Source: an uncultured Butyrivibrio sp. (lineage in GTDB: Bacteria; Bacillota; Clostridia; Lachnospirales; Lachnospiraceae). Taken from it: 64,000 nucleotides of DNA. The notes below the pieces were generated by a model. That model worked only from the letters and a program-made list of their open reading frames with translations. It did no database searches and was not told the DNA's origin. Shown in pieces: positions 11,167-63,341 of this stretch. Each line of letters opens with the position of its first letter. Within the stretch, counting starts at the first letter, position 1. The translations under genes and the position numbers were made by a program. Location: positions 16,566 to 80,565 of the forward strand of contig CAMNEA010000006.1 in the NCBI GenBank assembly GCA_946536145.1, in the 5' to 3' direction.

Positions 11167-14100
11167 TTACTCCTGTGCGCTAAGCCCCTCCCGGGCCAGA
11201 TTTACTATTTCGTCCCACTGCAGCTTGTAGGCAAGATCACCTATCTTCCTGAATATCCTTTCGTCATTCTCAGGGATATCATACTTTTTAAGAGAATCCA
11301 GAATGAAGGTCAGGGTATCATAGTCAAGTGTTCTGCTGACTTCCACTATGCTCTGATATGCATCAACAATCTGCGATCTGCTGATTGCTTCCCTGCCCTG
11401 CCTGTCGTCCTCGCTCTCGCCACCGCCGGCTATCTCCGGGATCCCTGAGAGTGAATGTCTGACCAGCATATATGTGTTCATAAGTTCATTCTGACAGGTA
11501 TTTATTGTCTCAACGTCATTCTCATTTCCGGCCTTTTCCATTCTCTCCGCAAGCTTCGACAGATCTTTTGCACCAATAGTCCTGCTGGTACTCTTAAGCG
11601 AATGAACGTAGCTGGTGTAGTCCTTGATGTTCCCTTCCTCAAAAGCTGTTGTGATATTGTTCTCAGTCATATCGATAGATTCATAAAAGACTTTAAGAAT
11701 GCTCAGATAGCTGTCAACGCTTCCACAGTTCTTAAGTCCCTCAGAGGCATCTATCTCTTCAAGATTTTTTATCCACTCAGGATATTCTTCGTTTGAAGCG
11801 CCGCTGTCAATGGTGCTTTCCGCTTCTTCCTCATCCGATACAACGACCTTGTCCTTTGGAAGATACCTAATAAGGCACTCCTCAAGCCTGTCGCTCTCTA
11901 TGGGCTTACTGAGATAATCATCAAAACCTTCCCTGAGGAAGTTCTCCCTTGCTCCTGATATCGCGTTTGCCGTAAGGACTACAACAGGAGTATCCCGGTT
12001 AGGACTGTCTGTGTCCTTCTTCATGTTCTCAAGGGTCTCTATTCCATCCATCTCCGGCATCCGGTAGTCAAGGAAGATGATGTCGTATTTTTTGCTGTGC
12101 TGTTTTTCAAGACACTCGGCTCCGCTTCTGGCGGACTCGATCTTCATCTTAGTCGGCTTGAGCAGCTCTCTTATTACAACATGATTCATTGGAGTGTCAT
12201 CGACAACAAGTACGACAGCTTCCGGAGCTGTGAATCTCTCCTTGTACTTCTTTCTCTCTTTAGCGGACTGGGCAAGCCTTGTCTTAAAGTCGCCTATAGG
12301 CTCGTCCCTGACTATCTTCTGCGGCAGTATGGCTGTGAAAGTAGACCCTTTGCCGTATTCGCTGTCAACGAGGATGGTTCCTCCCATGAGCTCAAGGAGC
12401 GAACTTGTGATGGCAAGACCCAGGCCGCTTCCCTCTACGGTCTTGTTCTTGTCGATGTCAAGCCTCTTGAACTTCTCAAAGAGTTTCTCCTTATCTTCAT
12501 CGCGTATGCCAAGCCCCGTGTCTGTTACATCAATCTTAAGCGTGAGAAGATCCTTAAAGTCTCTTTTCCCGCTTACACTAAGTGTCACGCTTCCGACGTT
12601 TGTATACTTTATTGCATTGTTGAGGATGTTTACCATGATCTGGCGTATCCTCATTTCATCGCCGTACATCGCATCCGGCAGTGTGTCATCTATTTTGAAG
12701 ATAAGATCCAGAGCCTTCTGCTCCGCCTTGATATGTACCATGTTGTAGACATCATTGAGCACCGAGCTGATGTCGTACTCCGCCTCATGGATCTCCATGC
12801 TTCCGGATTCTATCTTGGAAAAGTCAAGGATATCGTTTATAAGGGAAAGAAGTGTCCTGCCTGCCCCTTCGATATTCTGGGCATACTCCAGGATCTTTTC
12901 GTCCTTGCACTCCCTGAGGATCACCTCGTTCATGCCAAGCACTGCATTGATAGGTGTCCTGATCTCATGGGACATATTTGCCAGGAAATTGGTCTTGGCA
13001 TCGTTAGCGGCCTTCGCCCTTCTCTCCTCCATCCTGGCAAGCTCAGTTGCCTTGAGGATCGCGATAAACTCAGTTTTGCTCACCGGCTCGGAGAAATATG
13101 TGCCCTTCACGTAATTGCACTTAATGTGTGCAATTGCATTGACGCACTCCTGATTATCAACATTATCAATGACGATCTTAACGCCCATCTGGTTCATCAT
13201 CCTGAGCCTGTTCTCAAGAATGATCCTGTTCTGTGAGTGTTCATCGCTTCCGGCAAGAAGTGACGCGTCCATCTTGACACCTTCAAAGTTCAGTGAGGAT
13301 GCGGACTGCATGTTAAAAAATCCCGTTCCGTATTCATCCATGAAGAAGCGGATTCCGTCGCTTCTAAGCTCCTTAAGAATGTTTACAAGTACATTCTGAT
13401 CCGTCGCCGCCGCCGATTCGGTTATGTTGAAAACTATCTGCGATGCCCTGACACCATATTTTGACAGGAGTTTCCTGACCCTGCTGATAAAGTCGGATCT
13501 GATGATCTGAACTGACGAGAGGGCTATTTCAATAAACTCAAGCCCCATTTCCTCAGCTATGCCGCCGCCCAGGAAATAAAACGCTTCCTCGATGGTGAAC
13601 CATCCAAGGCTCTCGATCATGCCTGTCTGCTCCGCTATCGGCAAAAATTCATCTGCATCGATCTCTCCAAGCTCCCTGTCCCTGAAGTGAAGGGAAGCCT
13701 GAGCTGCGCATATAGCGTGATCATCCTGTGTATATACAGGCTCAAAATATACCTTAAAGCTCTGATCCTCGATTCCTCTTCTCACTGCATTTTCAACCTC
13801 TGCCTTCCGAAGCAGGAAGTCGAGGTCACTTCCGTAGAGCGCCCTGTCGCCGGCTATGTCTATCGCCGCATCCGATAAAAGGAATATCTGGTCTATGCTG
13901 CTGAACTGCTCAGGGCTCTTTGCAAGCAGGACATAGCCCTTTAAGTAGACCTTGTTGTCCCCGATTATCCATTCATTGTCAATTCTCTCTTTCAGCGTAT
14001 TCGCATAAGCTATCGCGCTCTCATCGTCAAGCCCGGGGCATATTATCATAAAACTGTCACCGGAAACCCTGTATATGTCAAACCTTGATCCGTCAGATAC

Positions 14101-14958
14101 GGAGTAGACCACTATCTGTGCAAGGATGCTCTCAAAGCTCTCATATCCCACGATCTTTCTGTAGACATCCGCATTGGTTATCCTTATGCATATCGTGTGG
14201 AATTGTCTCTTGTATTTGAAATAGCTCGCCACGTCCTTGGAAAACGCGTTGCGGTTAAATGCTCCGGTAGGAAGATCCATCCTGTCATCATCATTTTCAA
14301 GCACGATCATTATGCCCATGAAACCGATGGCTTCGCACATGAGCTCACATTTGACACCGATAAAGAACAACTGTATCAGGGTGCCGGCTATAACTATTAT
14401 AAAAAAGTAGATGAGTGCAAACTTCTTTAATCTGTTAAGAGTATTCCAGTACAAAAGAAGCGCCACTATCGCGAAAAGGAGATAAAAAGCTGCCTGAACA
14501 TAGGCCAGATACACGCCGAAATTCCTGTGAAGAACGAGGTTCTCATCATAGTAATAGACAAGATGCAGCAGAGGATTAAAAAGAACCATCATCTCCAGGA
14601 TATAGAAAGGCATGACTATAAGAGTCTGTGCTTTTTTGGAAAATCTGTAGGAGACATTGCAGACAAGAATAATATAAAGCGCAAAAAAAGGAGCTATGGC
14701 ATAGTGGGTTATGTAGTAGGCAAACTGGAGCACATCAACTAAAACGAGCTTGATTCCCTGGGATAGCTCGCTTCCTGTTACAAGTACTCCAGCTATGACT
14801 GTAATTGCATTCAGCATTACAATCACAAGATTCGCAATAAACAGCCGGTTCTTTAATCTCATCTTCCTGCGCATTAAGATCGAGTAAAACAGGCAGGTAA
14901 TTGTAATGACTACAGCAGACAGATTAAAGGTTACGCTTCCAATGCCTTCTACATCCAT
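11167..14958 (-). CDS. Membrane-GGDEF/EAL-like-hybrid histidine kinase-HPt fusion
   Basis: A 1263-residue fusion. Residues 1-220 form about seven membrane segments; 230-310 are a degenerate GGDEF (SGDSF); 400-640 an EAL-like domain with AQASL and DEYGTGF in place of catalytic motifs; 650-720 a HisKA domain with His664 (NMSHEIRTP); 760-880 a HATPase with VEGSGLGLAI; 913-1035 a receiver with Asp964 (FLDYRMP); and about 1080-1160 an HPt with His1119 (SYVHSLKS). All phosphorelay residues are present while the EAL side looks catalytically dead, so cyclic-di-GMP or a similar ligand may gate kinase activity; that is inference. It is the second gene of its operon. Confidence 0.9.
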   Translation of the reverse strand: MDVEGIGSVTFNLSAVVITITCLFYSILMRRKMRLKNRLFIANLVIVMLNAITVIAGVLVTGSELSQGIKLVLVDVLQFAYYITHYAIAPFFALYIILVCNVSYRFSKKAQTLIVMPFYILEMMVLFNPLLHLVYYYDENLVLHRNFGVYLAYVQAAFYLLFAIVALLLYWNTLNRLKKFALIYFFIIVIAGTLIQLFFIGVKCELMCEAIGFMGIMIVLENDDDRMDLPTGAFNRNAFSKDVASYFKYKRQFHTICIRITNADVYRKIVGYESFESILAQIVVYSVSDGSRFDIYRVSGDSFMIICPGLDDESAIAYANTLKERIDNEWIIGDNKVYLKGYVLLAKSPEQFSSIDQIFLLSDAAIDIAGDRALYGSDLDFLLRKAEVENAVRRGIEDQSFKVYFEPVYTQDDHAICAAQASLHFRDRELGEIDADEFLPIAEQTGMIESLGWFTIEEAFYFLGGGIAEEMGLEFIEIALSSVQIIRSDFISRVRKLLSKYGVRASQIVFNITESAAATDQNVLVNILKELRSDGIRFFMDEYGTGFFNMQSASSLNFEGVKMDASLLAGSDEHSQNRIILENRLRMMNQMGVKIVIDNVDNQECVNAIAHIKCNYVKGTYFSEPVSKTEFIAILKATELARMEERRAKAANDAKTNFLANMSHEIRTPINAVLGMNEVILRECKDEKILEYAQNIEGAGRTLLSLINDILDFSKIESGSMEIHEAEYDISSVLNDVYNMVHIKAEQKALDLIFKIDDTLPDAMYGDEMRIRQIMVNILNNAIKYTNVGSVTLSVSGKRDFKDLLTLKIDVTDTGLGIRDEDKEKLFEKFKRLDIDKNKTVEGSGLGLAITSSLLELMGGTILVDSEYGKGSTFTAILPQKIVRDEPIGDFKTRLAQSAKERKKYKERFTAPEAVVLVVDDTPMNHVVIRELLKPTKMKIESARSGAECLEKQHSKKYDIIFLDYRMPEMDGIETLENMKKDTDSPNRDTPVVVLTANAISGARENFLREGFDDYLSKPIESDRLEECLIRYLPKDKVVVSDEEEAESTIDSGASNEEYPEWIKNLEEIDASEGLKNCGSVDSYLSILKVFYESIDMTENNITTAFEEGNIKDYTSYVHSLKSTSRTIGAKDLSKLAERMEKAGNENDVETINTCQNELMNTYMLVRHSLSGIPEIAGGGESEDDRQGREAISRSQIVDAYQSIVEVSRTLDYDTLTFILDSLKKYDIPENDERIFRKIGDLAYKLQWDEIVNLAREGLSAQE

Positions 14959-46948: not shown

Positions 46949-48145
46949 TTACTGCTCGATTGTTATAATATCTGAAAGCACATAGTGAAACAGCGGATAT
47001 GAGCAGTGATCATTTTCTATGTAACCTTTCCTTAGGTCATAAGTGTCCGACGGATCCTCAGGATTTACACCGGTATAATTGCCCTTATAAACAAAATCCA
47101 CCTCACCTTTCCTGAACCGTTCTATGGCTTTGTCCATTGCCTCCTGTGTTCCAAAGGCAGCCACCTGCTGGTTCAGATCCTCCATCTCAACCCAGCCGTT
47201 CTCAAATCCTGCAGATGCATCCGTGCCATACACATGAGCTGCCAGACCTTTTTCTATCTTCCTGTCGGCCATTACTGCATCAGCAGCAGCAAGCACATAG
47301 GGCTCCCAGCATATCCTTGAAGTAACAAGGGATGCAGCAGGTGCAACCTCGGACATACTCTGATTGTATCCGACAAAGTATACGGGTTTTCCCTCTGCGT
47401 TATTCTCCTCACAGGCAATCGCAGGACCGATCGTATCGGTGTGCTGCGAAATAACTATGCATCCATCATCTATAAGGCGCTGCGCAGAGCTCTTTTCCAG
47501 AGCGTAGCTGCTCCAGGTATTGGTGTAGCATACCTTCATGGTCGTTGATGAGACAACAGATCTTGCTCCAAGGAGAAATGCGGTATAACCCGAGATAACT
47601 TCCGGAGTAGGAAACGCGGCAACAAACCCAACAATTGCCTGTTCTTCCGAGATCACACCCTCAAGAATCATCTGTCTTATCTTCATACCCGCAGCTATTC
47701 CGCTGACATACCTGCCCTGGTAGGCCTCACCCTTGAAGGTGTGGTAATTGGAAGGAACAGATTTGCCGGTCATATCCATATACGAAGTCTGACAGAACTG
47801 GATATCGGGATATTGAGGAGCAAGCTCCATGACAACTTCGCTGTAACCGTTAAGGAATATTATGTCACAGCCCTTATCCGCAAGCTCCCTGAGCGGCTCT
47901 TCCATCTCCTCGTCAAGCACGTTGCTGCAGGAAAGGATGTCCACAGCATCTCCATATTTTTTCTCGAGCGCATCGCTTGCAAGGGAAAAATTGTAGGTAT
48001 ATGGCGTACTCTCGTCATTGTCATAGATAAAGCCAACTGTAAGGTGTTCCTTCCTGCCCATGATATTCAGGACACTGAAACAGGTATGAAAGGCAGCCAG
48101 CATGATCAGGCACGTCAGAACAGTCGCAATATAAACCCTTTTCAT
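46949..48145 (-). CDS. BMP/PnrA-family substrate-binding protein, membrane-anchored
   Basis: 398 residues. The N-terminal membrane segment (about 5-28) has no convincing lipobox, so the protein is probably tethered outside the cell. The body fits the Bmp/PnrA purine-nucleoside-binding type fold: LTVGFIYDNDESTPYTYNFS, LADKGCDIIFLNGYS, FKGEAYQGRYVSGIAAGM and CIVISQHTDTIGPAIAC. Its ATG overlaps the stop of the HD-GYP receptor gene (ATGA). There is no ABC permease or ATPase beside it, so I infer a sensing role: it may present a ligand to the receptor rather than to a transporter. Confidence 0.85.
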   Translation of the reverse strand: MKRVYIATVLTCLIMLAAFHTCFSVLNIMGRKEHLTVGFIYDNDESTPYTYNFSLASDALEKKYGDAVDILSCSNVLDEEMEEPLRELADKGCDIIFLNGYSEVVMELAPQYPDIQFCQTSYMDMTGKSVPSNYHTFKGEAYQGRYVSGIAAGMKIRQMILEGVISEEQAIVGFVAAFPTPEVISGYTAFLLGARSVVSSTTMKVCYTNTWSSYALEKSSAQRLIDDGCIVISQHTDTIGPAIACEENNAEGKPVYFVGYNQSMSEVAPAASLVTSRICWEPYVLAAADAVMADRKIEKGLAAHVYGTDASAGFENGWVEMEDLNQQVAAFGTQEAMDKAIERFRKGEVDFVYKGNYTGVNPEDPSDTYDLRKGYIENDHCSYPLFHYVLSDIITIEQ

Positions 48146-51100
48146 ACTTCTCCTCCTTTCTCCTTGGATGCTTTTCTTGCTTCCTCTTCCATCTCCGCAG
48201 CCTGGATCTTGCGGTCCTCTTCAACACGTCTTGCAAGCTCCTCTGCAGCTTCCTTGTCAGCATTCTGGATATCAGCCTGCTTCTGGGCGTAGATCTCGTC
48301 GAGGTTTATGACGCCCTTGTCAATTAGGCGGAAGAATGCATCCAGCGCATCGGGGTCAAACTGCGTTCCGCGCCCCCTTAGCATTTCATTCATAACATAG
48401 GCTGTGTCCATGTGGTTTCTGTAGACACGGTTGGAAGTCATCGCATCAAATGCATCGGCAACTCCTATAATACGTCCAAACAGAGGGATCTCCTCTCCCT
48501 TGAGTCCGTCCGGATAACCCTTGCCGTCATAGCGCTCATGGTGATACCTCGTGCCCTCTTCAACATGCTCTACAAGTGTGAAGTCCTTGAGTATCTCCGC
48601 GCCTCTTGTAACATGTGATTTCATCTGTACATACTCTTCATCTGTGAGCCTTCCCACCTTATTGAGCACGCTGTCAGGAACACCTATCTTGCCGATATCA
48701 TGCATCTGGGCAGCTTTCTTGAGGTTGGATAACATCCTCTCCTTCTGCCACCACTTAAAGCAGTTCATCTCCTGCGCTATAAGTACAGAGTACTCAGCAA
48801 CCCTCAGGGAGTGCTGATGGGTTCTGACGTCCTTGGCATCGACTGCATTTGCTATCGCCATTACCGTCTCATTGGCCATATTGATCTTTATCTGCTGCTG
48901 GTTGAGCTGTCTTTGAACAACAAACCATGTGAACCAGATAATGATCATAGACAGAATCAGTATCATATAGAAAAAGAAATATGGCTGTTCATAGAATTCG
49001 CCTATCTTGACAAGCTCAAACTTGCGCTCCTCCAAAACCCTGCTCCCTGCGCTGTCAAAAATAGCAAGGTGGAAGGTGTATGTACCTGCCGGAAGATTGA
49101 CGTAGACGATATTGTTGAGACTGCTCTGAGGAGAAATAGTCCACTGTCTGTCGTAGCCCTGAAGGTAGTAACCGACATTCGGCTCCTGTACCGTATAGTT
49201 GAGGATCTCAGGGGCAAGCTCTATCCTGCTGACTCCCTGCCCTACCTCTATGGCTCCCTTCTTCGTAACAGGCTGCTGTATTCCGTCAAGCTTAACCGAT
49301 GCCAGCTGCATTCTGTAGGAACGGACATCACTGTTGTATTTCTCAACGTCTATCATATATACGCCAGTATCACATGGAAGAAGCAGTTCTCCCTTGCCGC
49401 CGTAGCAGTTCCAGGAATTGGCTGTAAGGGATGTTCCAAGTCCTCTTCTTGCATCGAGAAGCTCCCAGGCAATCTCGCCGCCTGCGACAAGTTCATCTCT
49501 CTCAACCACATAGATTCCGGCACTTGACATAACAAAAAGAGTGTCTTCGTCCTTGACCCAGATATCGTAGTTGTTAAAATACGGGAACTTATCAAGTACT
49601 CTGATAGTGCCCTCAGGTTCAAGGTAGCACAGGCTGTTGCTGGTTACTATGAACACTCCCTCAGACTTTGGATCTTTTACTGTTCTAAGGATTACTTCAC
49701 TGCTAAGACCGTCTTCGCGCTTCAGCATATCTGTCACTTTGCCGTCCTTTATGACTGCGATGCCATCGCCGTCGGTACCGGCAAGAATGCTGCCGTCGCT
49801 CATCTCTGTTATGGTCAGTATCATTGAGTTGATAAGGCCGTCCTCATTGCGAATTGTCCTGACTACCTTATGGTCTTTGATGTAACTGATACCGCCTTCA
49901 CCTGCCGCGATGATTGTTCCGTCAGAAAGTCCTGTCACAATGCGGGCTCTCTTTCCAAAACTTCCGTTGTCAGCATCATAGGTCCATATCTCGCCATTCT
50001 GTGAATATTCTAAAAGCCCGTTTCCGTATGTGCATATCCACAGATGATTGTCCTCATCCACGTACATGCACCGTATGCGTACTCCTTCAAGCTCCTGCGT
50101 CATCTTATTATGAATCTGTCTGTGGCAGGGCTTATCCACGATATCAAGTCCCTTGTCGGTTCCGATATAGTAAAATCCGTGCCATGAAATAACCGCATTT
50201 ACAACTTTCCTCTCCATACCAATAGCTCCGTAGATATCCTTGAACGGAGATTTTGCAAGGCGAAGCAGTCCAAGTCTCGATGATGTAAACCACAGATTTC
50301 CCTGATAGTCATAGAGCATATTGTCAATTGAGTTATTAAATTCGTTGGTATTTAACCTGTGGTATCCGTTTATGTCAAAATATGCCACACCGCTGTCAGT
50401 GGTAATAAACAGTGTGCCATCGTTCAGATAGTTCATATTATTGATACTGCTCACATCCTCACAGGTCAGGATATCGGTCAGCTTTAATTTATCACCGAAA
50501 ATATCGTAGGAGTATATATGATTGGTAGAAGTTCCGACCATCAGCGTTCCGTCAGGTGAAAAAGCGCAGCAATTGAACAGCTCCTGGTCATCAGGGAGCT
50601 TTGCAGAAGTTAAGACATTGCCATTGCTAAGGAGAAAGAGTCTGCCGTCTGATGCGATCGTTGCAACATGACCGTTCTGATCTGCCGTGATACTCTCGGC
50701 ATAATAGACTTCATCAAGTGTATGCACAGCCTTAAGACCATTGTTCATCTCAATGATCTGCATACTGCTGCTGGTTCCTACATAGTAATATCCGTCTGTT
50801 CCACGGATTATAGACCTTACCGAATTGGATGGAAGCCCGCTCGAAGTATCTATCACATTGACTATCTCTTCACGGATTGCAATGGAAAGACCATTGTCGT
50901 TGGTGCCAATCCAGAGTCGTCCTTCTTCATCAACATAGAGGCAGTTGACATTCTTGACAGATTCATAATCATCGATCCAGCGAAACTCTTTTCCGTTATA
51001 GCGGTATAATCCTGCATAGGTTCCTATCCACAATACACCGTCATTGGTCTGCGCTATATCATTGGCTTCACCGCAGGGAAGACCATTGTTGCTGCTGTAG

Positions 51101-51801
51101 ATACTGTGAACATAGTCATTAAAATCCGGTGCCTCAACGTCAAATGTATTCTCTGCTCTTACGCCAAGCGGCATCGCAAAACCAAGACTGAGAAAAAGGC
51201 ATAAAGTCACAGCTGCCTTTCCAGCTTTTCCTTTTAGTTTTTCTTTCTCATTAGTCTGATCAATGTTCCAGTGCCTTATACGCACAAACAGATACAGAAG
51301 TGCGATCGTAAGTACCTTGTCGGTAAATTCAATGGCCAGCTGGCCGATAACATAGCAGGCAAAAGGCGGCCAGTCCCTGTCGATAAGATAATCAATGACT
51401 CCGTTTCCCCACTTATTGCCGCAATAGCCGCCGTCAAAAATCAGATTGATAGGAACCGATACTATAAGCGAAAAAAGAACCGAAAGTGTAGCGGCCTGCA
51501 TGAATCCGTAAAACCTGTCAAACCACTTTCCCTTTGCCGCAACTCCTATGATAATTCCAAGGGTAATACTCGTAATAGAATAGAAAAGTGAGATCTGGTT
51601 GATAATGCAAAACGCAATATTACCGGTCACTCCCACTACCGCTCCGCAGAAGGGACCGGCGAAGTAGGCACACAGAACTGTGCCAAGCGAATCTGCCCAG
51701 AGAGGCAGCTCCAGCCATGAACATAACAGTTTCCCTCCAATGTTCAGGCATACGCATAAAGCAACAAATAAAACTATCTGCCACGTTTTTCTCTTTTTCA
51801 T
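48142..51801 (-). CDS. Membrane receptor: ECF-like membrane domain, beta-propeller, Y_Y_Y domain and HD-GYP phosphodiesterase
   Basis: About 1219 residues. Residues 1-190 form about six membrane segments with an ECF-S-like arrangement (LADSLGTVLCAYFAGPFCGAV-type opening, TSITLGIIIGVAAKGKWF). Another membrane segment leads to a propeller of Reg_prop repeats (DGVLWIGTYAGLYRYNGKEF, EGRLWIGTNDNGLSI), a Y_Y_Y domain (GYYLQGYDRQWT, NLPAGTYTFHL), a membrane segment at about 925 and a C-terminal HD-GYP domain with intact HDIGKIGVPD and HHERYDGKGYP, which should hydrolyse cyclic-di-GMP. I start at ATG 51801, seven bases after AAGGGG; the track start (TTG) overlaps that site. The BMP gene overlaps its end. 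Confidence 0.88.
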   Translation of the reverse strand: MKKRKTWQIVLFVALCVCLNIGGKLLCSWLELPLWADSLGTVLCAYFAGPFCGAVVGVTGNIAFCIINQISLFYSITSITLGIIIGVAAKGKWFDRFYGFMQAATLSVLFSLIVSVPINLIFDGGYCGNKWGNGVIDYLIDRDWPPFACYVIGQLAIEFTDKVLTIALLYLFVRIRHWNIDQTNEKEKLKGKAGKAAVTLCLFLSLGFAMPLGVRAENTFDVEAPDFNDYVHSIYSSNNGLPCGEANDIAQTNDGVLWIGTYAGLYRYNGKEFRWIDDYESVKNVNCLYVDEEGRLWIGTNDNGLSIAIREEIVNVIDTSSGLPSNSVRSIIRGTDGYYYVGTSSSMQIIEMNNGLKAVHTLDEVYYAESITADQNGHVATIASDGRLFLLSNGNVLTSAKLPDDQELFNCCAFSPDGTLMVGTSTNHIYSYDIFGDKLKLTDILTCEDVSSINNMNYLNDGTLFITTDSGVAYFDINGYHRLNTNEFNNSIDNMLYDYQGNLWFTSSRLGLLRLAKSPFKDIYGAIGMERKVVNAVISWHGFYYIGTDKGLDIVDKPCHRQIHNKMTQELEGVRIRCMYVDEDNHLWICTYGNGLLEYSQNGEIWTYDADNGSFGKRARIVTGLSDGTIIAAGEGGISYIKDHKVVRTIRNEDGLINSMILTITEMSDGSILAGTDGDGIAVIKDGKVTDMLKREDGLSSEVILRTVKDPKSEGVFIVTSNSLCYLEPEGTIRVLDKFPYFNNYDIWVKDEDTLFVMSSAGIYVVERDELVAGGEIAWELLDARRGLGTSLTANSWNCYGGKGELLLPCDTGVYMIDVEKYNSDVRSYRMQLASVKLDGIQQPVTKKGAIEVGQGVSRIELAPEILNYTVQEPNVGYYLQGYDRQWTISPQSSLNNIVYVNLPAGTYTFHLAIFDSAGSRVLEERKFELVKIGEFYEQPYFFFYMILILSMIIIWFTWFVVQRQLNQQQIKINMANETVMAIANAVDAKDVRTHQHSLRVAEYSVLIAQEMNCFKWWQKERMLSNLKKAAQMHDIGKIGVPDSVLNKVGRLTDEEYVQMKSHVTRGAEILKDFTLVEHVEEGTRYHHERYDGKGYPDGLKGEEIPLFGRIIGVADAFDAMTSNRVYRNHMDTAYVMNEMLRGRGTQFDPDALDAFFRLIDKGVINLDEIYAQKQADIQNADKEAAEELARRVEEDRKIQAAEMEEEARKASKEKGGEV

Positions 51802-54219: not shown

Positions 54220-57200
54220 TTATGCGAGATTTCCAAAATCATCATCATTCCTGCTCTGGAATGCAGGCATATACAGTATTGCTATGCACAGTCCCGCACT
54301 TATTATCGCGATGATGAACAGCCATACAGTTGCTCCGCCTCTCTGATCAAAGATATCGGTAAATCTGATGGAAGTACCCTTTGCAGCATCCTCATTATCG
54401 GCTTCAAGAAGTCCCTCCTGGTAATTCATGTCAGCACCTGTAAGTATCTTTTCCGGTGTGATGACAACCGTATAATCTGAAGCCTCGGTGATAGGGAACT
54501 GAACGTATCCGTTGTCATCAACAACAGTTGTTCCGACAGCCGTGATCTCTTTAGTCTCCTCGTCGTACTTATAAAGGGTTGCATTCATGCCGGCATGTTC
54601 CTTATTGGAAGGAACCGTGATAGTTGCCTCAAAGCCATAGTTCTCCTTACTTGTCATCGAGAACTCTACATGAGGATTGCTTCCAACCACTTCTGTAAGG
54701 TGCTTATTCGGAATATTCCTGCTTCCGAGCTTGACGCCCATATCTGCATAGGTAACAGTTGAAGCATTCTTCCAGGTAGGCGTGGCATTCGTTGTACCCT
54801 GCGTCTGACCTGCGGTCGTATTCGCTGTAACCTGGGTCTGACTTGTGGTATTAGCTGTGCTCTGGGTCTGTGCAGTGGTATTTGTTGTACCCTGCGCCTG
54901 ACCGGTGGTATTAGTTGTAACCTGGGTCTGAGCTGTGGTATTTGTTGTACCCTGCGCCTGACCGGTGGTATTAGCTGTAACCTGGGTCTGAGCGGTGGAT
55001 TCTGTTGTTCCCTGTGTCTGACTCGTGGTGTTTTCTGTTGTAACCTGTGTCTGACTTGCAGTGGTTTCTGTTGTTCCCGTCTGACTTGCGGTATTTGCTG
55101 TAACCTGGGTCTGAGCGGTAGGTTCTGTTATAGTTGTACCTTGTGTCTGAGCGGTAGTTTCCGCTGTGCCCTGTGTCTGACTTGCAGTGGTTTCTGTTGT
55201 TCCCTGCGTCTGAGCGGTGGGTTCTGTTGTAACCTCTGTCTGAGCAGTAGTTTCTGTCGTCCCCTGCTCTGTGCCGGTTGTTTCTGTTGCAGCCTGCGTC
55301 TGAGCGGTGGGTTCTGTTGTAACCTCTGTCTGAGCAGTAGTTTCTGTCGTCCCCTGCTCTGTGCCGGTTGTTTTTGTTGCAGCCTGCTCTGTGCCGGTTG
55401 TTTCTGTTGTTACTTGCTCTGTGCCGGTGGCATTTGCAGATGTAACGCTGCTTCCTTTTATCTCCCACGTCACATCATTTGGCATTCTGAGCTTCACGGA
55501 TACATCCTTGCCATCCATCGCATCAAACAGCTGACTCGATACCTGTGAGGTTCCGCTCATCTCGACTTCAATGACTGCACCCTCATCTGCTTTACTTACT
55601 TCGTTGGAGATCCTGCTCCATCCGCTGGTCTTGGCAAGACCGATGTTGGTATTACCTGTCGCGTCTGCAATATAAGGATCGCGGATAATATTGAAATCAG
55701 AATCCGAATCACTGTCTGTTCCCTTGTTCTCAGAACCATTGACTGTTCCATTTTCGGAACCGGAATCACTATTCTGCTTGTCTCCTGATCCTGCTATTCC
55801 ATTTGGCACAGGTGTAAGTCCGCTGCCGCCTCCGGCTCCTGCGCCTTCCTTCTGCGCATCGCCTGCGGCTGCACCTGTAGCTTCAGCTCCGTCAACTTCC
55901 TGGCTGGTTACCTCACTGACATTATCTGCCCTGTCAACCGCTGCAAAGTAGAAATTGTACTGCTTGCTTGGGTCAAGGCCGGATATGGTATAGGTTCCCA
56001 TCGAAACACCCTCAGCCTCCTTGCTGGTCTCAATAAGGATTCCCATGTCAAAAATGTACTGGCTTGAAGGTGCACCGCCTGATCCATTAGAAGCCTCGCT
56101 GTAGAGGAGCTTGAACCTGTCGACTCCACTGAGCTCATCCTTACCTGCCACTGCCACAATAGTACCCGATCCGTCATTAGCAGGTGTAACTGTAGCTACA
56201 TTCATCTTGGGCGCTACAGTGTCATACATTACATCTGCCGTAGACAGATTTACAGCATTATCATTCGGATCAACTATCTTGGCATAAATGTAGTTCTTCT
56301 GATCCTTGATTATCTCAGGCTTTTTGTCTTCTGAGTATTCTCTCCACTGCGAATCCTTCTCCTTGATAGCCGCCTCAACATCACTGGTGGATGAGTAGAA
56401 GGTATCACTGATAAAGTAGTAGATCTTATCAGCCTTGTAGCTGTAATCACCTGCAGTTATGGTGATCTTCTTTGCCTCCTTAGTATAGAAAGCCAGCGCA
56501 TCCTTTGAGTTGAACTTATCGCTCAAATAATCTCCAACCACGATCTTGGCATTGGTAGAATTGATTATCAGCTTAGTTATCACATCACTGATGTTTCCTG
56601 CTTTGTCAACTGCAACGATATACAGCTTGTAGTTCTTGGAAGAATCAAGCTTCTTTACCGTGCAGCTTCCGGTTGCATTTCCGTCTTCATCAGTGGTTGC
56701 TTCAATGGTAGTTCCATTCTTAACGATCTGCTTACCGTCGGGATCAGTCATGTCCCACTTAAGCTCTTTGCATACAAGCATGAACCTGTCAACTTTGCTA
56801 AGTGCGTCTTTACCACTGAGCTTAACAAGCGCGCTTTCACCACCTTCCTGATAGGTCACGGCTGAATCTGTGATAATCGGCGCAACGGTGTCGTAAATAA
56901 TCTTACCTGTGGAAAGATTTATTTGTTTCCCGTTTACATCAATTATCTTCACATAAATATAATTTCCCTCGTTCTCATTAGCCTGCGGTCTGTACTCTTC
57001 AGAATACTCACGCCACATAGACTCCTTCTCCTTGATGTCTGCTTCTACATCCTGGGGTGTTGGGAAGAACTTTTCGCTAATGTAATATTCAACTTTCGTC
57101 GCTTTTTCAGCTATTATTGCAACCTTTTGTGCATAATTCAGATTTACTGCTATACTATCTGATTTCTGGAACTCATCGCTATAGTATTCTTCACCTACCT

Positions 57201-60200
57201 CAATCCTGTAGATAGGATCAACATTCAGCACTTCCTTCGTCTCTATATCACTGATATTTCCTGCCTTATCAAGAGCTATGATATAGAGATAATAGTTTTC
57301 ATCAGGATCCAGGTTTTTAATATCGTAAGTGCATGAAGCCACTCCGTCATCATCTATTGTCGGCGTAAGCTTAGTGCCGTCATCGATGATCTCCTGCTCG
57401 CTGGGAGTACCGTCTATAGATGACTCAGATCTACATATCATCATGAAATTTGCTACTCCGCTGAGATTATCTTCTCCGGTCAGAGTAAGTGTAGCTGTCT
57501 CTTTATCAGGTTTCACCGCTGCCGATGTAATATTCGGAGCCGCTGTGTCATAGACAACATTTGCGGTTGAGAGGTATGCGACACTTCCTTTTCCGTCAGT
57601 TACCCTCGCATAGACGTAGTTGTTCTGATCTGCAGCTATCTCAGGAGCAGCACTCTTTAAGTACTCTCTCCAGTCATCATTATCACTCTTAATAGCATCA
57701 TTGACCGCTGCAGGTGTGGCATAGAACTTGTCGGTCAGATAATACTCGATTGAATCAATGCCATATACACTGTTCTCAGCAGTTATAGCTATCGTTTTGG
57801 CTTTATTTGTATAGTACGCAACAGCATCCTCAGTCTGGAAGATATTGCTTGAGTAGCTGCCCACCTTGATATTGGATGTTGAAATATTGCGCAGGAGCTT
57901 ACTTGTGACATCACATATATTGCCGGCCTTGTCAGTTGCCATCAGGTAGACAATATAGTTCAGGGTCACATCAAGATCCTTCATGGAAGCAGATCCTGTT
58001 GCCTCCCCATCTCCTGATGCAGCGGCCTTTACTTTTGTGCCTTTCTTTTGCATCTCGTCTTTTGTAGGAGTCTTCATATCACTGCCTGTGTATACCTTAT
58101 ACAGAACTGTGAAAGTCTCTATTCCGCTCAGGGCATCCGTGCCGGCGATGTCCAGTCTGCAGTTCTTTCCTCCGCCCGAGAAGATTGCAACCTGCTTGGT
58201 TATCTTGGGACTTACTGTGTCATAGATGCAGTCTCCGGTTGAAACAAATGTCTTGTTGCCCGCAAGGTCATAGACTATCGCGTAAATGTAGTTCTTTTTG
58301 TTCTTGCTGATGGTCGGCGCATCCGAATCATCATAGGCATTCCAAAGAGAACTGGTCTCCGGAACCTCCTTCAAAAGGTCTCCGGCTGCCTCATAGAACT
58401 TGTCTCCAACGTAGTAGAGAACATAGTCTACATCTTTGTCACAGTTTATCTTAATTGTTTCTGCCTTGTCTGTTGTAAGAGCGACGGTATCTGTATCTAC
58501 AAACTTGTAGCTCTTGTAATTGCCCACCTCTATGGAAGCTGATGAAGCATTTCTGTCTATCCTGATGACTATTGTAAAGGTCTGGATATCCTTGGAGTCC
58601 TTATTGTTCTTGAAATCCAGTTCCAGGGTGTTCTCGCCATCCTTGGTAACAGTGTAGCTGTCCTTGAAATTATTCTTTCCCGAATCGGAAATCGTATATC
58701 CCTCACAGGTCAGAGTGACATCCTTGTTGAACCAGTCTCTGTATTTTCCGCCGTTGTACTGAACAGGAAGATCGATATCCTTGTAGATTACGATTCCGGT
58801 AATGGTAACTGTCCTCTCACTTCCGGTAGTCTTATCCCTGAATGTCAGGTCAAAGTCAGGTGCCTTACCTGCTTTATTCCAGATATAGTAGTTGGCAAAG
58901 CTGCCACCTTCCGGAGGACCTACCTCAAAGCCGTTAGCGCTGATCCTTACACTGTCATGGTAGTAGTCAGCCTTTACGGTCTTTCCGTCATACAGTACAA
59001 CAAAGGCTGTAATCGTAATGTTCTTAAGTCTCTGCGAAACGATCCTTCCTGTAGTCTTGTTTTTGAGATATACCAGAACTCCCTGCTTTGCACCGGGGGT
59101 CTTGTAGATCAGAGAATCCCCATAAACGCCCTCATCAGGTAATGCTATCTGGTAACCGGAAGGAGCACCGATCTCAACCTGATCATAATAGTTTTCCTTG
59201 AGAGTAGTCTCTCCGTTGTAGGTAAAGCCGGAAGCCTCTGCCACTTCAACAGAGTTTCTGAAGATCCCTGAAAAGTTTCCTTTTCCCTGATAGTTAAGGG
59301 CATATTCGCTGCCGGTTTCTACAACCTGCCCTGCACTTGGGAAATCTGTTCCAAGAATAACTTCATAGTCAGTTCCCTCAACAAGAGCGTTTCCACCCAG
59401 AGCAAAAGAATATGCATCCTTGGCAAAATCAACATTGCTGGTTGCGTAATCGATATTGCCGGACTCCGTCATCTTAAGATTCGGTGACTTAGTGGCGGTC
59501 TTCTCAATGTTCAGAGGATCAATGGTTATGGCTCCATAATCCTTGGAAACTGTGAATGTCTTAGTTACAGCCGCAGATGTGTAATCGTAGGTAATGCTGT
59601 AAGTAACATCATTATCCTTATAAGTCCCGGCATTTGTCTGCTTGAAAGCATCCTCCTTAGTGTAACTCGAAATCGACACAGTAACGCCTGTTGCAGTATC
59701 AGGTGCTACAGGTTCCTTGTAGCCTTCAAGAAGCGACTGTTCCTTTCCGTTATATACAAGACCTGTCGCAGCAACAGGAGCTCCGCCGTTCTTTGTAAAG
59801 AAATCATCAAACGAAAATGGTGGCGGATTTAAAATAAGATTTTCAATCTTCTGCCTGAATACAACTCCCTTATTATTCTTTAAATATACATAGAAAGTCT
59901 GCGCAACCGGATTTACTTTGTCATAAGTATAGGTGCTGTCAAAAGTGCCAGATGCATCATCGCTTATTGTGTAGCCTGTTGCCGGCGCAATTATTACTGA
60001 CTGGTAGTATTTTCCGTCGGTCTTGAAAGGCTGCCCATCAAAAGTCAGTGCAACCTTAGGAAGACCAAAGTCCACAGAATAGTTAGAATTGAAATCACCG
60101 ACTCCAATTGCGGAAAAATCTACTGTGTTTATCTTTTGGTCACTTCCCTCTGCCACAGGAATACCTTCTTCGCCCAGTGCAGTATAGGTGACCAGATAAT

Positions 60201-63200
60201 CCTTGTCCTTGACAAGGGTGTATTCCTGTCCCGAAGCAGGTGTGTAATCTTTTGTGTACTTGAGAGTGTAAGTTCCTCCATTTAAGAAGGCGGTAGCAGC
60301 TGCATCAGCATCGGGTTTTGTAGTGATAGTACTGATATCAACAGTCTTTATCTGAAGTCCTGATATAGTAGCCGTGTATTCTCTTGTCTTCCCGGACTTT
60401 TTCAAATATACCCGGAAGTCTTCGCCGGTTCTGACTTTATATTCCGCAGAGTCAGCATAGTCGCTGTCCGGAACCTTTATCTGCAGGGCGTTGCCTCCGG
60501 AGATTTTGCCTGCAAGCAGTACTCCATAGTTGTAGGAGGCAGCCATTGTCTCTTCTCCGTTAAAAGTAACGACCGGCTTGTCTACCGTAAAGCTTTTTCT
60601 TGTCTGCCCCTCGTATTTATCTCCTTTGCCGGTGCAAAAAATGGTATACTTTTTGCCTATCTCAAGGGGGCTGCTTGTATAGTCACTGCCACTTTCATCA
60701 TTTTCGCCTTCCCTGATAACATAGGTATAGTCATCGCCAATATTAAGTGTTTCCTCAGTTCCGCCATTATCGTATTTCAGGGTAAAGAGATCATCGTTTT
60801 CAAAATCTACTTCACTGAAGGTGGCGTCTTTAATATCTCTCTTTTTTACAGTCAGATTATTTACAGGAACGCGGAAAGGCTCTCCATCGCCCTTTTTCAC
60901 ATATACATAAAAGTTCTGACTATCGCCTAGAGTTGTATAATCCACCGAATCGGTGTAATCTGATCCATCAAGTGAAATCTTATAGTTTGCAGAATCACTG
61001 CAGGCCAGAGTTACTTTCAGTATGTATGGATTAGTGGCCGTGTCACTGCCATTGAATTTTATTTTTGCTCCATCAGGCAGGGAAAGCTTGAATTTAAAAT
61101 CCTTGGTTCCTTCATAATTATTGCCCGTACCGGCAAAAGTAATGGTGTTTTCAGTTGTAGAATCCGCAACCGGCACTGACTCAAGCGTAGCGGTGTAATC
61201 CGTACCTTTTGTCATTGCAGCAGGTGTAGAAGACGAGTTTACATGCTTTAAATAAACACCTGTAGCTGCATATTCAGAGGCATCAATGGTAGTTCCGCTG
61301 CTTACGGCTTGATTGTTTCCAAAAAATACATCTACAAAATTATCATTACTATATGTCGTACCAATGTCATTTTTAGCGATATTTGCTCTAAAATCTCCGG
61401 TTTTGAATGAAACAGTCTCTGTCGTCATTGACGGTGCACCATTCTTTTTTTCAAAATATACTTCAAATTGATATTTCTGTTCCCCTGCAGATGTACCGTC
61501 ATAACCTGTCTGGTTTACAATACTTATTCTATTGAACCGATACGTAGGGAAATCTGTTCCTTCTTCAGCAAAAAATTGAGTAGTATTTCCTGTATAGTCC
61601 TTCGAACCTAAATAGGGTGTCTGATCCTGAGTATTATACACAAGACTCTGATCCGGGATTGAGCTAAATGTAATCTGATCTTTTATAAACTGAGGCATAT
61701 TATCATTACCTGCCCCAAACAGTCCCTTCCTCAATGCATTTCTGGTTATGATCTGGTTTCCACCACAAACAGTGCACAGTCCGTCTTCACCGAACGTGCA
61801 CGCTTCAATCTCTGTATAGTCGCAGAGGGCGCAGGTCCTTGTGTGGTTGCCCTTTCCATCGCTCTTCCACTTACCCATCTTATGCTCTTCAGTTATAGTC
61901 CTGTCATCGTCGTCTTCAGCGCACAACGAGCAGACACCTGTGTGGGTGCCATCGCCGTTATCTTTATATTCGTACTTATGAGTGTGGGCCTTGCCTGTTC
62001 CGTCGTCCTCTGTCTCTTCTTCCGCACCGCAGTCCGTGCAATATCTCTTTAAAGTGCCCTCATCGGTCTTCTCATAGTCTGTGTAGTTGTGTCCTTCCGT
62101 GATCTCGTCGCCGCATACGCTGCAGACTCCGGTGTGTGTTCCGTCGTCATTGTCAGTATAGTCATACTTATGTGTTGTGCACTCTGTTGTAGCAGCATCA
62201 TCTTCGACAAGGGGCTTTTCATAACCACAGATATCACAGATGTTGTCATCACCAAACTCACAGTCCTCTGTCACGGATCTGCCGGAGTGATAATAGAGGA
62301 TGTGCGTTCCATCATTATTAGATGACTTTGATTCCACATAGTCTTCTTCGTCATCATCGTTATTCAGATCATCGTTATTATTCTGATCGTCATTATTGTT
62401 CAGGTCATCGTTATTATTCTGATCGTCATTATTATTCAGGCCATCGTTATTGTTCTGATCGTCATTATTGTTCAGGTCATCGTTATTGTTCTGATCGTCA
62501 TTATTGTTCAGGTCATCGTTATTGTTCTGCTCGTCATTATTATTCAGGTCATCGTTATTGTTCTGCTCGTCATTATTATTCAGGTCATCGTTATTGTTCG
62601 GATTGTTATTGTTCTGATCATCGTTGTTGTCCTGATCATTGTTGTTCTGATCGTCATTATTATTCAGGTCATCGTTATTGTACAGGTCATTATTATTGTT
62701 CTGATCATCGTTGTTGTTCTGGTCATTATTGTTGTTCTGATCATCGTTGTTGTTCAGACCATCATTATTGTTCTGACCATCGTTGTTGTTCTGGTCACCA
62801 TTATTGTTCTGATTGCCATTATTGTTCTGATTGTCATTATTGTTCAGATCATCATTGTTGTTTTGATCATCATTATTGTTTTGATCATCATTATTGTTTT
62901 GATCATCATTATTGTTCAGATCATCGTTATTGTTCTGGTCATCGTTATTGTTCTGGTCATCATTATTATTCAGGTCAACGTCGTTATTAAGGTCGTCATT
63001 ATTCAGATTGTCTGTATCATCACCGCCCTGACCATTATTCCCATCGCTGTTAAGATCGTCTCCACTGTTATCATTATTGTTCTGATCAGAGTCGTCAGGC
63101 AGAGTCGTATTTTCACCACCATTTTCATCAATGCTGGTGTTCTCCTCAATCCTGTTCTCATTCAGATTGACATCATTAACAGTCGCGTAACTGAACATGG

Positions 63201-63303
63201 ATCCTATTCCGGACGCCGTGCACAGCATGCTGGTTATCAGAAGACCTATAAAGATTCTCTTCGCTCCCGCCTTAAGATTTTTAAACTGTTTTTTTATTTT
63301 CAT
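54220..63303 (-). CDS. Giant surface protein (about 3027 residues) with Asn/Asp and Thr/Gln tracts
   Basis: I start at ATG 63303 (MKIKKQFKNL), eight bases after GAGGGG. In order: a signal segment (IFIGLLITSMLCTASGIGSM); about 250 residues of Asn/Asp repeats; a Cys/His-rich section (about 345-515) of HTHKYEYKDNGDGTHTGVC-type repeats with several CxxC pairs; a long stretch of MBG/Ig-like beta domains; four modules of about 218 residues (opening I-VGxYxSxxF; containing YDTxAPxIT and GxDxLSGV; ending DKAGNISDV); a Thr/Gln-rich tract; and a C-terminal membrane segment (ATVWLFIIAIISAGLCIAIL) with a short acidic end. It looks like a stalk-type adhesin anchored by its C-terminal membrane segment; no LPxTG. 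Confidence 0.88.
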   Translation of the reverse strand: MKIKKQFKNLKAGAKRIFIGLLITSMLCTASGIGSMFSYATVNDVNLNENRIEENTSIDENGGENTTLPDDSDQNNNDNSGDDLNSDGNNGQGGDDTDNLNNDDLNNDVDLNNNDDQNNNDDQNNNDDLNNNDDQNNNDDQNNNDDQNNNDDLNNNDNQNNNGNQNNNGDQNNNDGQNNNDGLNNNDDQNNNNDQNNNDDQNNNNDLYNNDDLNNNDDQNNNDQDNNDDQNNNNPNNNDDLNNNDEQNNNDDLNNNDEQNNNDDLNNNDDQNNNDDLNNNDDQNNNDGLNNNDDQNNNDDLNNNDDQNNNDDLNNDDDEEDYVESKSSNNDGTHILYYHSGRSVTEDCEFGDDNICDICGYEKPLVEDDAATTECTTHKYDYTDNDDGTHTGVCSVCGDEITEGHNYTDYEKTDEGTLKRYCTDCGAEEETEDDGTGKAHTHKYEYKDNGDGTHTGVCSLCAEDDDDRTITEEHKMGKWKSDGKGNHTRTCALCDYTEIEACTFGEDGLCTVCGGNQIITRNALRKGLFGAGNDNMPQFIKDQITFSSIPDQSLVYNTQDQTPYLGSKDYTGNTTQFFAEEGTDFPTYRFNRISIVNQTGYDGTSAGEQKYQFEVYFEKKNGAPSMTTETVSFKTGDFRANIAKNDIGTTYSNDNFVDVFFGNNQAVSSGTTIDASEYAATGVYLKHVNSSSTPAAMTKGTDYTATLESVPVADSTTENTITFAGTGNNYEGTKDFKFKLSLPDGAKIKFNGSDTATNPYILKVTLACSDSANYKISLDGSDYTDSVDYTTLGDSQNFYVYVKKGDGEPFRVPVNNLTVKKRDIKDATFSEVDFENDDLFTLKYDNGGTEETLNIGDDYTYVIREGENDESGSDYTSSPLEIGKKYTIFCTGKGDKYEGQTRKSFTVDKPVVTFNGEETMAASYNYGVLLAGKISGGNALQIKVPDSDYADSAEYKVRTGEDFRVYLKKSGKTREYTATISGLQIKTVDISTITTKPDADAAATAFLNGGTYTLKYTKDYTPASGQEYTLVKDKDYLVTYTALGEEGIPVAEGSDQKINTVDFSAIGVGDFNSNYSVDFGLPKVALTFDGQPFKTDGKYYQSVIIAPATGYTISDDASGTFDSTYTYDKVNPVAQTFYVYLKNNKGVVFRQKIENLILNPPPFSFDDFFTKNGGAPVAATGLVYNGKEQSLLEGYKEPVAPDTATGVTVSISSYTKEDAFKQTNAGTYKDNDVTYSITYDYTSAAVTKTFTVSKDYGAITIDPLNIEKTATKSPNLKMTESGNIDYATSNVDFAKDAYSFALGGNALVEGTDYEVILGTDFPSAGQVVETGSEYALNYQGKGNFSGIFRNSVEVAEASGFTYNGETTLKENYYDQVEIGAPSGYQIALPDEGVYGDSLIYKTPGAKQGVLVYLKNKTTGRIVSQRLKNITITAFVVLYDGKTVKADYYHDSVRISANGFEVGPPEGGSFANYYIWNKAGKAPDFDLTFRDKTTGSERTVTITGIVIYKDIDLPVQYNGGKYRDWFNKDVTLTCEGYTISDSGKNNFKDSYTVTKDGENTLELDFKNNKDSKDIQTFTIVIRIDRNASSASIEVGNYKSYKFVDTDTVALTTDKAETIKINCDKDVDYVLYYVGDKFYEAAGDLLKEVPETSSLWNAYDDSDAPTISKNKKNYIYAIVYDLAGNKTFVSTGDCIYDTVSPKITKQVAIFSGGGKNCRLDIAGTDALSGIETFTVLYKVYTGSDMKTPTKDEMQKKGTKVKAAASGDGEATGSASMKDLDVTLNYIVYLMATDKAGNICDVTSKLLRNISTSNIKVGSYSSNIFQTEDAVAYYTNKAKTIAITAENSVYGIDSIEYYLTDKFYATPAAVNDAIKSDNDDWREYLKSAAPEIAADQNNYVYARVTDGKGSVAYLSTANVVYDTAAPNITSAAVKPDKETATLTLTGEDNLSGVANFMMICRSESSIDGTPSEQEIIDDGTKLTPTIDDDGVASCTYDIKNLDPDENYYLYIIALDKAGNISDIETKEVLNVDPIYRIEVGEEYYSDEFQKSDSIAVNLNYAQKVAIIAEKATKVEYYISEKFFPTPQDVEADIKEKESMWREYSEEYRPQANENEGNYIYVKIIDVNGKQINLSTGKIIYDTVAPIITDSAVTYQEGGESALVKLSGKDALSKVDRFMLVCKELKWDMTDPDGKQIVKNGTTIEATTDEDGNATGSCTVKKLDSSKNYKLYIVAVDKAGNISDVITKLIINSTNAKIVVGDYLSDKFNSKDALAFYTKEAKKITITAGDYSYKADKIYYFISDTFYSSTSDVEAAIKEKDSQWREYSEDKKPEIIKDQKNYIYAKIVDPNDNAVNLSTADVMYDTVAPKMNVATVTPANDGSGTIVAVAGKDELSGVDRFKLLYSEASNGSGGAPSSQYIFDMGILIETSKEAEGVSMGTYTISGLDPSKQYNFYFAAVDRADNVSEVTSQEVDGAEATGAAAGDAQKEGAGAGGGSGLTPVPNGIAGSGDKQNSDSGSENGTVNGSENKGTDSDSDSDFNIIRDPYIADATGNTNIGLAKTSGWSRISNEVSKADEGAVIEVEMSGTSQVSSQLFDAMDGKDVSVKLRMPNDVTWEIKGSSVTSANATGTEQVTTETTGTEQAATKTTGTEQGTTETTAQTEVTTEPTAQTQAATETTGTEQGTTETTAQTEVTTEPTAQTQGTTETTASQTQGTAETTAQTQGTTITEPTAQTQVTANTASQTGTTETTASQTQVTTENTTSQTQGTTESTAQTQVTANTTGQAQGTTNTTAQTQVTTNTTGQAQGTTNTTAQTQSTANTTSQTQVTANTTAGQTQGTTNATPTWKNASTVTYADMGVKLGSRNIPNKHLTEVVGSNPHVEFSMTSKENYGFEATITVPSNKEHAGMNATLYKYDEETKEITAVGTTVVDDNGYVQFPITEASDYTVVITPEKILTGADMNYQEGLLEADNEDAAKGTSIRFTDIFDQRGGATVWLFIIAIISAGLCIAILYMPAFQSRNDDDFGNLA
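54800..55445 (-). repeat. Thr/Gln tract repeats in the giant protein
   Basis: Tandem units such as TETTAQTQGTT, TASQTQGT and TEQVTTETTG repeat for about 210 residues. At DNA level units of 30-48 bases recur, and one longer block is duplicated (55200-55260 and 55315-55370). It probably forms an extended, glycosylated-like wall-spanning stalk. Confidence 0.85.
62340..63095 (-). repeat. Asn/Asp tract repeats in the giant protein
   Basis: Units of DDLNNNDDQNNN (18, 21 and 36 bases at DNA level) repeat about 250 residues near the N-terminus. The plus-strand ORFs at 62322-62990 and 62863-63393 are shadows of this repeat. Confidence 0.9.
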
Positions 63304-63317
63304 AATATTACCCCTCT

Positions 63318-63341
63318 TTGTGACCACGACGCCTGTCACAA
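63318..63341 (-). promoter_or_regulatory. Inverted repeat next to the giant gene's ribosome binding site
   Basis: TTGTGAC-N10-GTCACAA, perfect 7-base arms, ends one base before the AGAGGGG site of the giant gene. It could be a leader hairpin affecting translation, or an operator. It is not a standard CRP site because the spacing is wrong. Confidence 0.45.

Follow-up and report, generated by a model that had tools for sequence, protein, structure and literature searches.

A BMP-family binding protein paired with a propeller/HD-GYP receptor in Butyrivibrio: a candidate purine-base sensor acting on cyclic-di-GMP

In the 64,000-nucleotide stretch of Butyrivibrio DNA analyzed here (the window), a gene for a large membrane receptor (1219 aa; 48142..51801, minus strand), comprising an S-component-fold domain, TM7, a Reg_prop propeller, a Y_Y_Y domain, TM8 and an HD-GYP domain, is followed by a gene for a BMP/PnrA-like binding protein (398 aa; 46949..48145, minus strand). 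We propose that the BMP is a former transporter binding protein that now serves a c-di-GMP phosphodiesterase receptor as its ligand-sensing subunit, the two genes forming one signaling unit; we put the probability of this reading at about 0.72. Most likely, the pair lets the cell sense external purine bases, not import them. The ORF calls place the BMP start codon inside the receptor stop codon, with four bases (ATGA) shared (48142..48145, minus strand), a layout that points to translational coupling. The same reading frames, coordinates and overlap had been given in an initial annotation of this DNA, as had the lack of an ABC permease or ATPase at the locus, and indeed none adjoins the pair. 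Rfam detected no riboswitch in the 44–56 kb region of the window. The window's genome is no more than 73% complete, and claims of absence therefore rest on relatives.

The pair occurs in Butyrivibrio relatives from the gut and the rumen. The survey covered 80 loci, all of them in Butyrivibrio-like genomes and with a receptor identity of 72–77% in the best segment; 77 of these extend past the receptor and can be judged. The BMP gene lies next to the receptor gene in all 77, with the identical four-base overlap in 67, and the same pair is seen in 12 other Lachnospiraceae genera, at BMP identities of 46–52%. Flanking genes change between loci. The SpoIIE phosphatase gene upstream and pyrE downstream in the window were considered as members of the unit and rejected, being found beside the pair at 0–1 of the 80 homologous loci. 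Among 79 genomes of the genus, a receptor orthologue is present in 26, and a BMP orthologue in exactly those 26 (Fisher, 2e-21). The pairing, whose conservation the initial annotation had left to a survey of relatives, is well beyond chance. The receptor can nonetheless persist without the BMP, because one genome (G009, 96% complete) retains a receptor of the paired clade and has no Bmp-family protein at all; in another (G487), only a remnant of the BMP is left.

Pfam matches in the receptor comprise HD_5 (2.2e-36), Reg_prop (5.8e-23) and Y_Y_Y (4.1e-07). The topology predicted from hydrophobicity starts with the helices of an S-component (ECF-S/5TMR) fold membrane domain (residues 1–185; 51247..51801) and continues through TM7 (196–214; 51160..51216) to an extracytoplasmic propeller of Reg_prop repeats with relatives of PDB 4a2l (221–860; 49222..51141) and the Y_Y_Y domain (861–940; 48982..49221), also outside; TM8 (944–962; 48916..48972) then leads to the HD-GYP domain inside (966–1160; 48322..48906), all on the minus strand. 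HD_5 is the sole cytoplasmic domain, and no histidine kinase or receiver was found in the chain by Pfam. Residues 11–174 match the NCBIfam profile ECF_S_CD3073 (NF045596) at 5.9e-18 and 65 bits, below the curated cut-off of 180. In an AF2 model of residues 1–197 (pLDDT 87), the only good Foldseek matches in the PDB are the S-components TmRibU, ThiT and FolT (best E value 4e-3, probability 1.00 for the best, TM 0.46–0.67). Pfam, NCBIfam and AF2 thus bear out the ECF-S-like, Reg_prop, Y_Y_Y and HD-GYP make-up described initially. Receptors with the S-component/5TMR 'transceptor' fold are already known (PMC11109136), and the window protein resembles them in having this fold within a receptor and in not conserving the AxxxA motif of helix 1, which is missing from the window protein and present in 11 of 90 relatives. 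The text of that paper mentions neither propeller/HD-GYP combinations nor a binding-protein partner. Across the window protein and 92 relatives, TM7 is hydrophobic and weakly conserved, with AxA-like ends and the look of a signal peptide, and the receptor chain might be cleaved there into two parts.

The catalytic residues of the output domain were assigned by reference to PmGH (PMC4159591) in an alignment of 93 receptors. Equivalents of PmGH D183, H189, H221, D222, K225, H250, H276, H277, D305 and D308 are invariant (93/93), and seven of the eight PmGH metal ligands are kept throughout. The window domain contains the HD and HHExxDGxGYP motifs (residues H1034, D1035, K1038, H1063, H1087, H1088 and D1116). 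The exception among the metal ligands is E185, whose position is occupied by Arg993 in the window, by R in 82 of the 93 receptors and by N in nine, which suggests that the metal site is binuclear. Judged from the alignment, Arg at this metal-ligand position is an unusual HD-GYP variant. The domain is likely active, and the receptor probably breaks down c-di-GMP.

By domain composition, the receptor belongs to a family that is widespread in Lachnospiraceae and whose outputs have been swapped. Receptors that join the S-component domain to a propeller and Y_Y_Y domain, with GGDEF, HD-GYP, HD-GYP-REC or hybrid-kinase outputs, occur in many genera, and hence the linkage of ECF-like and HD-GYP parts on such a chain is not unusual, contrary to what the initial annotation held; the unusual element is the dedicated BMP partner. 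In the receptor tree, the paired receptors fall into a single clade, within which the BMP-less receptor of G009 is nested. Their sister group consists of BMP-less HD-GYP receptors, and the GGDEF and hybrid-kinase versions fall outside. The window's own genome encodes a GGDEF twin that shares the S-component, propeller and Y_Y_Y parts and has no BMP partner (L086:4392-8210, C88), for which the opposite effect on c-di-GMP is predicted. It also encodes two more proteins that combine an S-component domain with an HD-GYP or HD-GYP-like domain and lack a propeller (L090 and L091). In one of these (L091:1-1833), the HD-GYP-like end, which has no Pfam match, reads YD in place of HD (APLYDIGK) and is probably inactive. 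In other genera, SBP_bac_1 genes adjoin S-component/propeller receptors of the hybrid-kinase type (L198:3610-4875 and L209:8892-10112), a possible second binding-protein pairing within the same family.

The partner matches the Bmp family (PF02608) at 3e-26, with 92.5 bits against a cut-off of 24.1. Its AF2 model contains an N-terminal helix (residues 2–26) that ends a few residues ahead of the domain, and the protein is predicted to be held in the membrane by this helix, uncleaved. A pattern search found no lipobox in the window BMP; a lax version of the pattern matches 20 of 89 paired BMPs through a Cys within the hydrophobic stretch at a position that is not conserved, compared to 24 of 26 ABC- or MCP-linked BMPs. 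By sequence and fold, the nearest structures are AtzT (6PI5) and Brucella 3S99. In AtzT, guanine is sandwiched by Tyr45 and Trp194, with further contacts from Glu165, Asn218, Asn220 and the Ser97–Phe98 loop (PMC6834077). The pocket of the window BMP (Y49, R145, E182, W211, H235 and D237) retains the Tyr/Glu/Trp set and, among paired BMPs, is conserved at Y49 (90/90), E182 (90/90), W211 (89/90), H235 (86/90) and D237 (88/90); the last two give the His/Asp of 3S99, which was modeled with adenine, where AtzT has Asn/Asn. The Ser97–Phe98 loop is hit by a two-residue deletion in 78 of 90 paired BMPs (the Butyrivibrio type, window included), with its Ser kept in the other 12 and S-Y found in most non-Butyrivibrio genera. 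Given that this loop is missing in Butyrivibrio, the ligand may differ from the guanine of AtzT. AtzT probably serves uptake as an SBP, whereas the window BMP has neither an ABC partner nor a lipobox. From the pocket and the operon context of relatives, our best guess for the ligand is a purine base (guanine-, adenine- or xanthine-like), a related heterocycle being possible.

The BMPs next closest to the paired ones (36–44% identity) are encoded together with two permeases and an ABC ATPase, and most carry a lipobox. Several of these sister operons include xanthine phosphoribosyltransferase (xpt), and at one of the 20 sister loci inspected a purine riboswitch accompanies the BMP gene. Paired BMPs form a single clade (support 100/100) on a long stem, nested inside the ABC-linked BMPs. 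Recruitment of the BMP on one occasion, from a purine-base ABC transporter, would best explain this tree. The pair and an ABC-linked BMP occur together in only two genomes (p=0.007), and these same two are the only ones of the 26 pair genomes to encode the permease of the sister operon, which is present in 6/6 ABC-only controls. A BMP was also taken up beside another kind of signaling receptor: at two loci (L156:6517-7731/4783-6504 and L157:6767-7969/5016-6755), the gene immediately upstream of an sCache chemoreceptor (MCP) gene encodes a BMP. These differ from the pair described here in their separate origin on the tree, in belonging to another BMP branch, in keeping a lipoprotein-type signal and in their chemoreceptor output.

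That the BMP still serves transport, feeding an ABC permease of the BMP type from another locus and being merely co-transcribed with the receptor, strikes us as very unlikely. Transporter SBPs are its nearest outside relatives, and most pair genomes do contain distant BMP-type permeases (∼30% identity). However, the orthologous permease is absent from 24 of the 26 pair genomes, seven of which have no permease match whatever, and the distant transporters inspected in three pair genomes come with an SBP of their own, encoded next to uridine phosphorylase or cytidine deaminase. The tendency of the pair and the ABC system toward mutual exclusion, the lack of a lipobox in the window BMP and the long time over which the paired clade has evolved separately likewise argue against continued transport. 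No BMP-type transporter that uses the window protein, which the initial annotation had named as grounds against a signaling role, was found in the genomes searched. The only other BMP found in the window's own genome is a 648-aa frame with a C-terminal BMP domain behind a region of ∼300 aa (L085:4624-6570, C26); since this genome, 73% complete, has no permease-like match, the protein is not an obvious transporter SBP. Similar frames of 640–700 aa are common in many relatives. As for the ligand, a nucleoside is improbable. The nucleoside binders PnrA, BmpD and Lbp are also structural relatives of the window BMP, but the base binders AtzT and 3S99 are closer by sequence and rank above PnrA and BmpD by fold, the Trp/Glu/His/Asp pocket is common to the xpt-linked transporters, and the nucleoside-type transporter of the genus lies in a different BMP branch. 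The core of the initial proposal, a binding protein reporting to c-di-GMP breakdown, is hence strengthened by conservation, co-occurrence, phylogeny, permease absence and lipobox loss; its 'nucleoside-type' label is probably wrong, with the pocket and sister operons pointing to purine bases.

Other alternatives concern the receptor itself. The S-component domain could be the true sensor, with the BMP just presenting or scavenging the ligand in a two-step capture and the propeller playing a structural part. Its fold is supported, polar and aromatic residues (W35, D37, N61, N129 and D161) are conserved in it, and the same domain occurs without a propeller in the two own-genome proteins mentioned above; yet it is common to BMP-less receptors with other outputs and, among the folded parts of the receptor, is the least conserved, and we regard this explanation as unlikely. 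We also doubt strongly that the HD-GYP domain is something other than a c-di-GMP phosphodiesterase, acting on a different dinucleotide or by protein contact. The Arg at the E185 position would be compatible with such a role, as would the rank of a 3′3′-cGAMP phosphodiesterase (5z7c) as second-best PDB relative and the absence of the P of GYP in nine distant receptors. Against it stand the seven shared metal ligands and the D183 and K225 equivalents, invariant in 93/93, and the existence of a GGDEF twin whose sensory part is the same.

In the favored reading, of a BMP that gates a c-di-GMP phosphodiesterase, the BMP would be tethered to the outside of the membrane by its uncleaved helix and a short linker and would bind a guanine-, adenine- or xanthine-like base. 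The closed BMP would then touch the receptor's extracytoplasmic propeller/Y_Y_Y portion, from which the signal would pass through TM8, possibly via the S-component membrane domain as well, to the cytoplasmic HD-GYP domain, altering c-di-GMP hydrolysis in one direction or the other. A broader proposal, tentative and in our view somewhat doubtful, is that the tethered ex-transporter BMP and the transporter-derived S-component domain jointly form the input of one c-di-GMP receptor. Transport apparatus would then have been turned wholly into a purine-base sensor. This sensor would be one of the output variants within a large receptor family of Lachnospiraceae, so far undescribed, in which members could make c-di-GMP (the GGDEF twin), break it down or phosphorylate, and some are accompanied by binding proteins of another kind (SBP_bac_1 beside hybrid-kinase-type receptors).

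SBP-gated c-di-GMP control is known from the NspS–MbaA polyamine system of Vibrio cholerae and Sinorhizobium (PMC8967002, PMC9993111), and in the literature searched this proteobacterial system was the only example. There, as proposed for the Butyrivibrio pair from gene pairing and co-occurrence, an ex-ABC-type binding protein with no transport role gates a membrane c-di-GMP enzyme. NspS binds polyamine and MbaA is bifunctional, making and degrading c-di-GMP, whereas the Butyrivibrio pair, from Bacillota and built of unrelated parts, has a BMP/purine-type SBP, predicted to be tethered, and a receptor with S-component, propeller and HD-GYP domains. The extracytoplasmic Reg_prop propeller and Y_Y_Y domain recall the sensors of Bacteroides hybrid two-component systems (4A2L, 3V9F and 3OTT), from which the receptor differs in its HD-GYP rather than kinase–receiver output, its added S-component domain and its separate SBP. 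Within the part of the literature covered, we found no published account of this pair, either among BMPs linked to propeller/HD-GYP proteins or among ECF-S/c-di-GMP fusions. If our reading is correct, the pair would add an independent example, from Bacillota, that differs in ligand class, binding-protein family and receptor, and would suggest a ligand for a receptor of the propeller/Y_Y_Y type. It would also represent an import protein turned sensor whose ABC-linked sisters are still available for comparison, and would open purine sensing by rumen Butyrivibrio to direct tests. The wider receptor family, in which one sensory chassis carries interchangeable outputs, offers material for assigning ligands to receptors.

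Several other genes drew our attention. One gene of the window (11167-14958) joins EAL, histidine kinase, receiver and Hpt domains; together with its neighbors, a second EAL gene (8458-10407) and genes for a receiver and an HDOD protein, it forms a c-di-GMP cluster. Another (54220-63339) encodes a repeat-rich surface protein of 3039 aa with long low-complexity runs of NNNDD(Q/L) and TTETTAQTQ. At L192:9001-11064, isopropylmalate synthase (LeuA) is apparently fused to an AraC-type helix-turn-helix domain.
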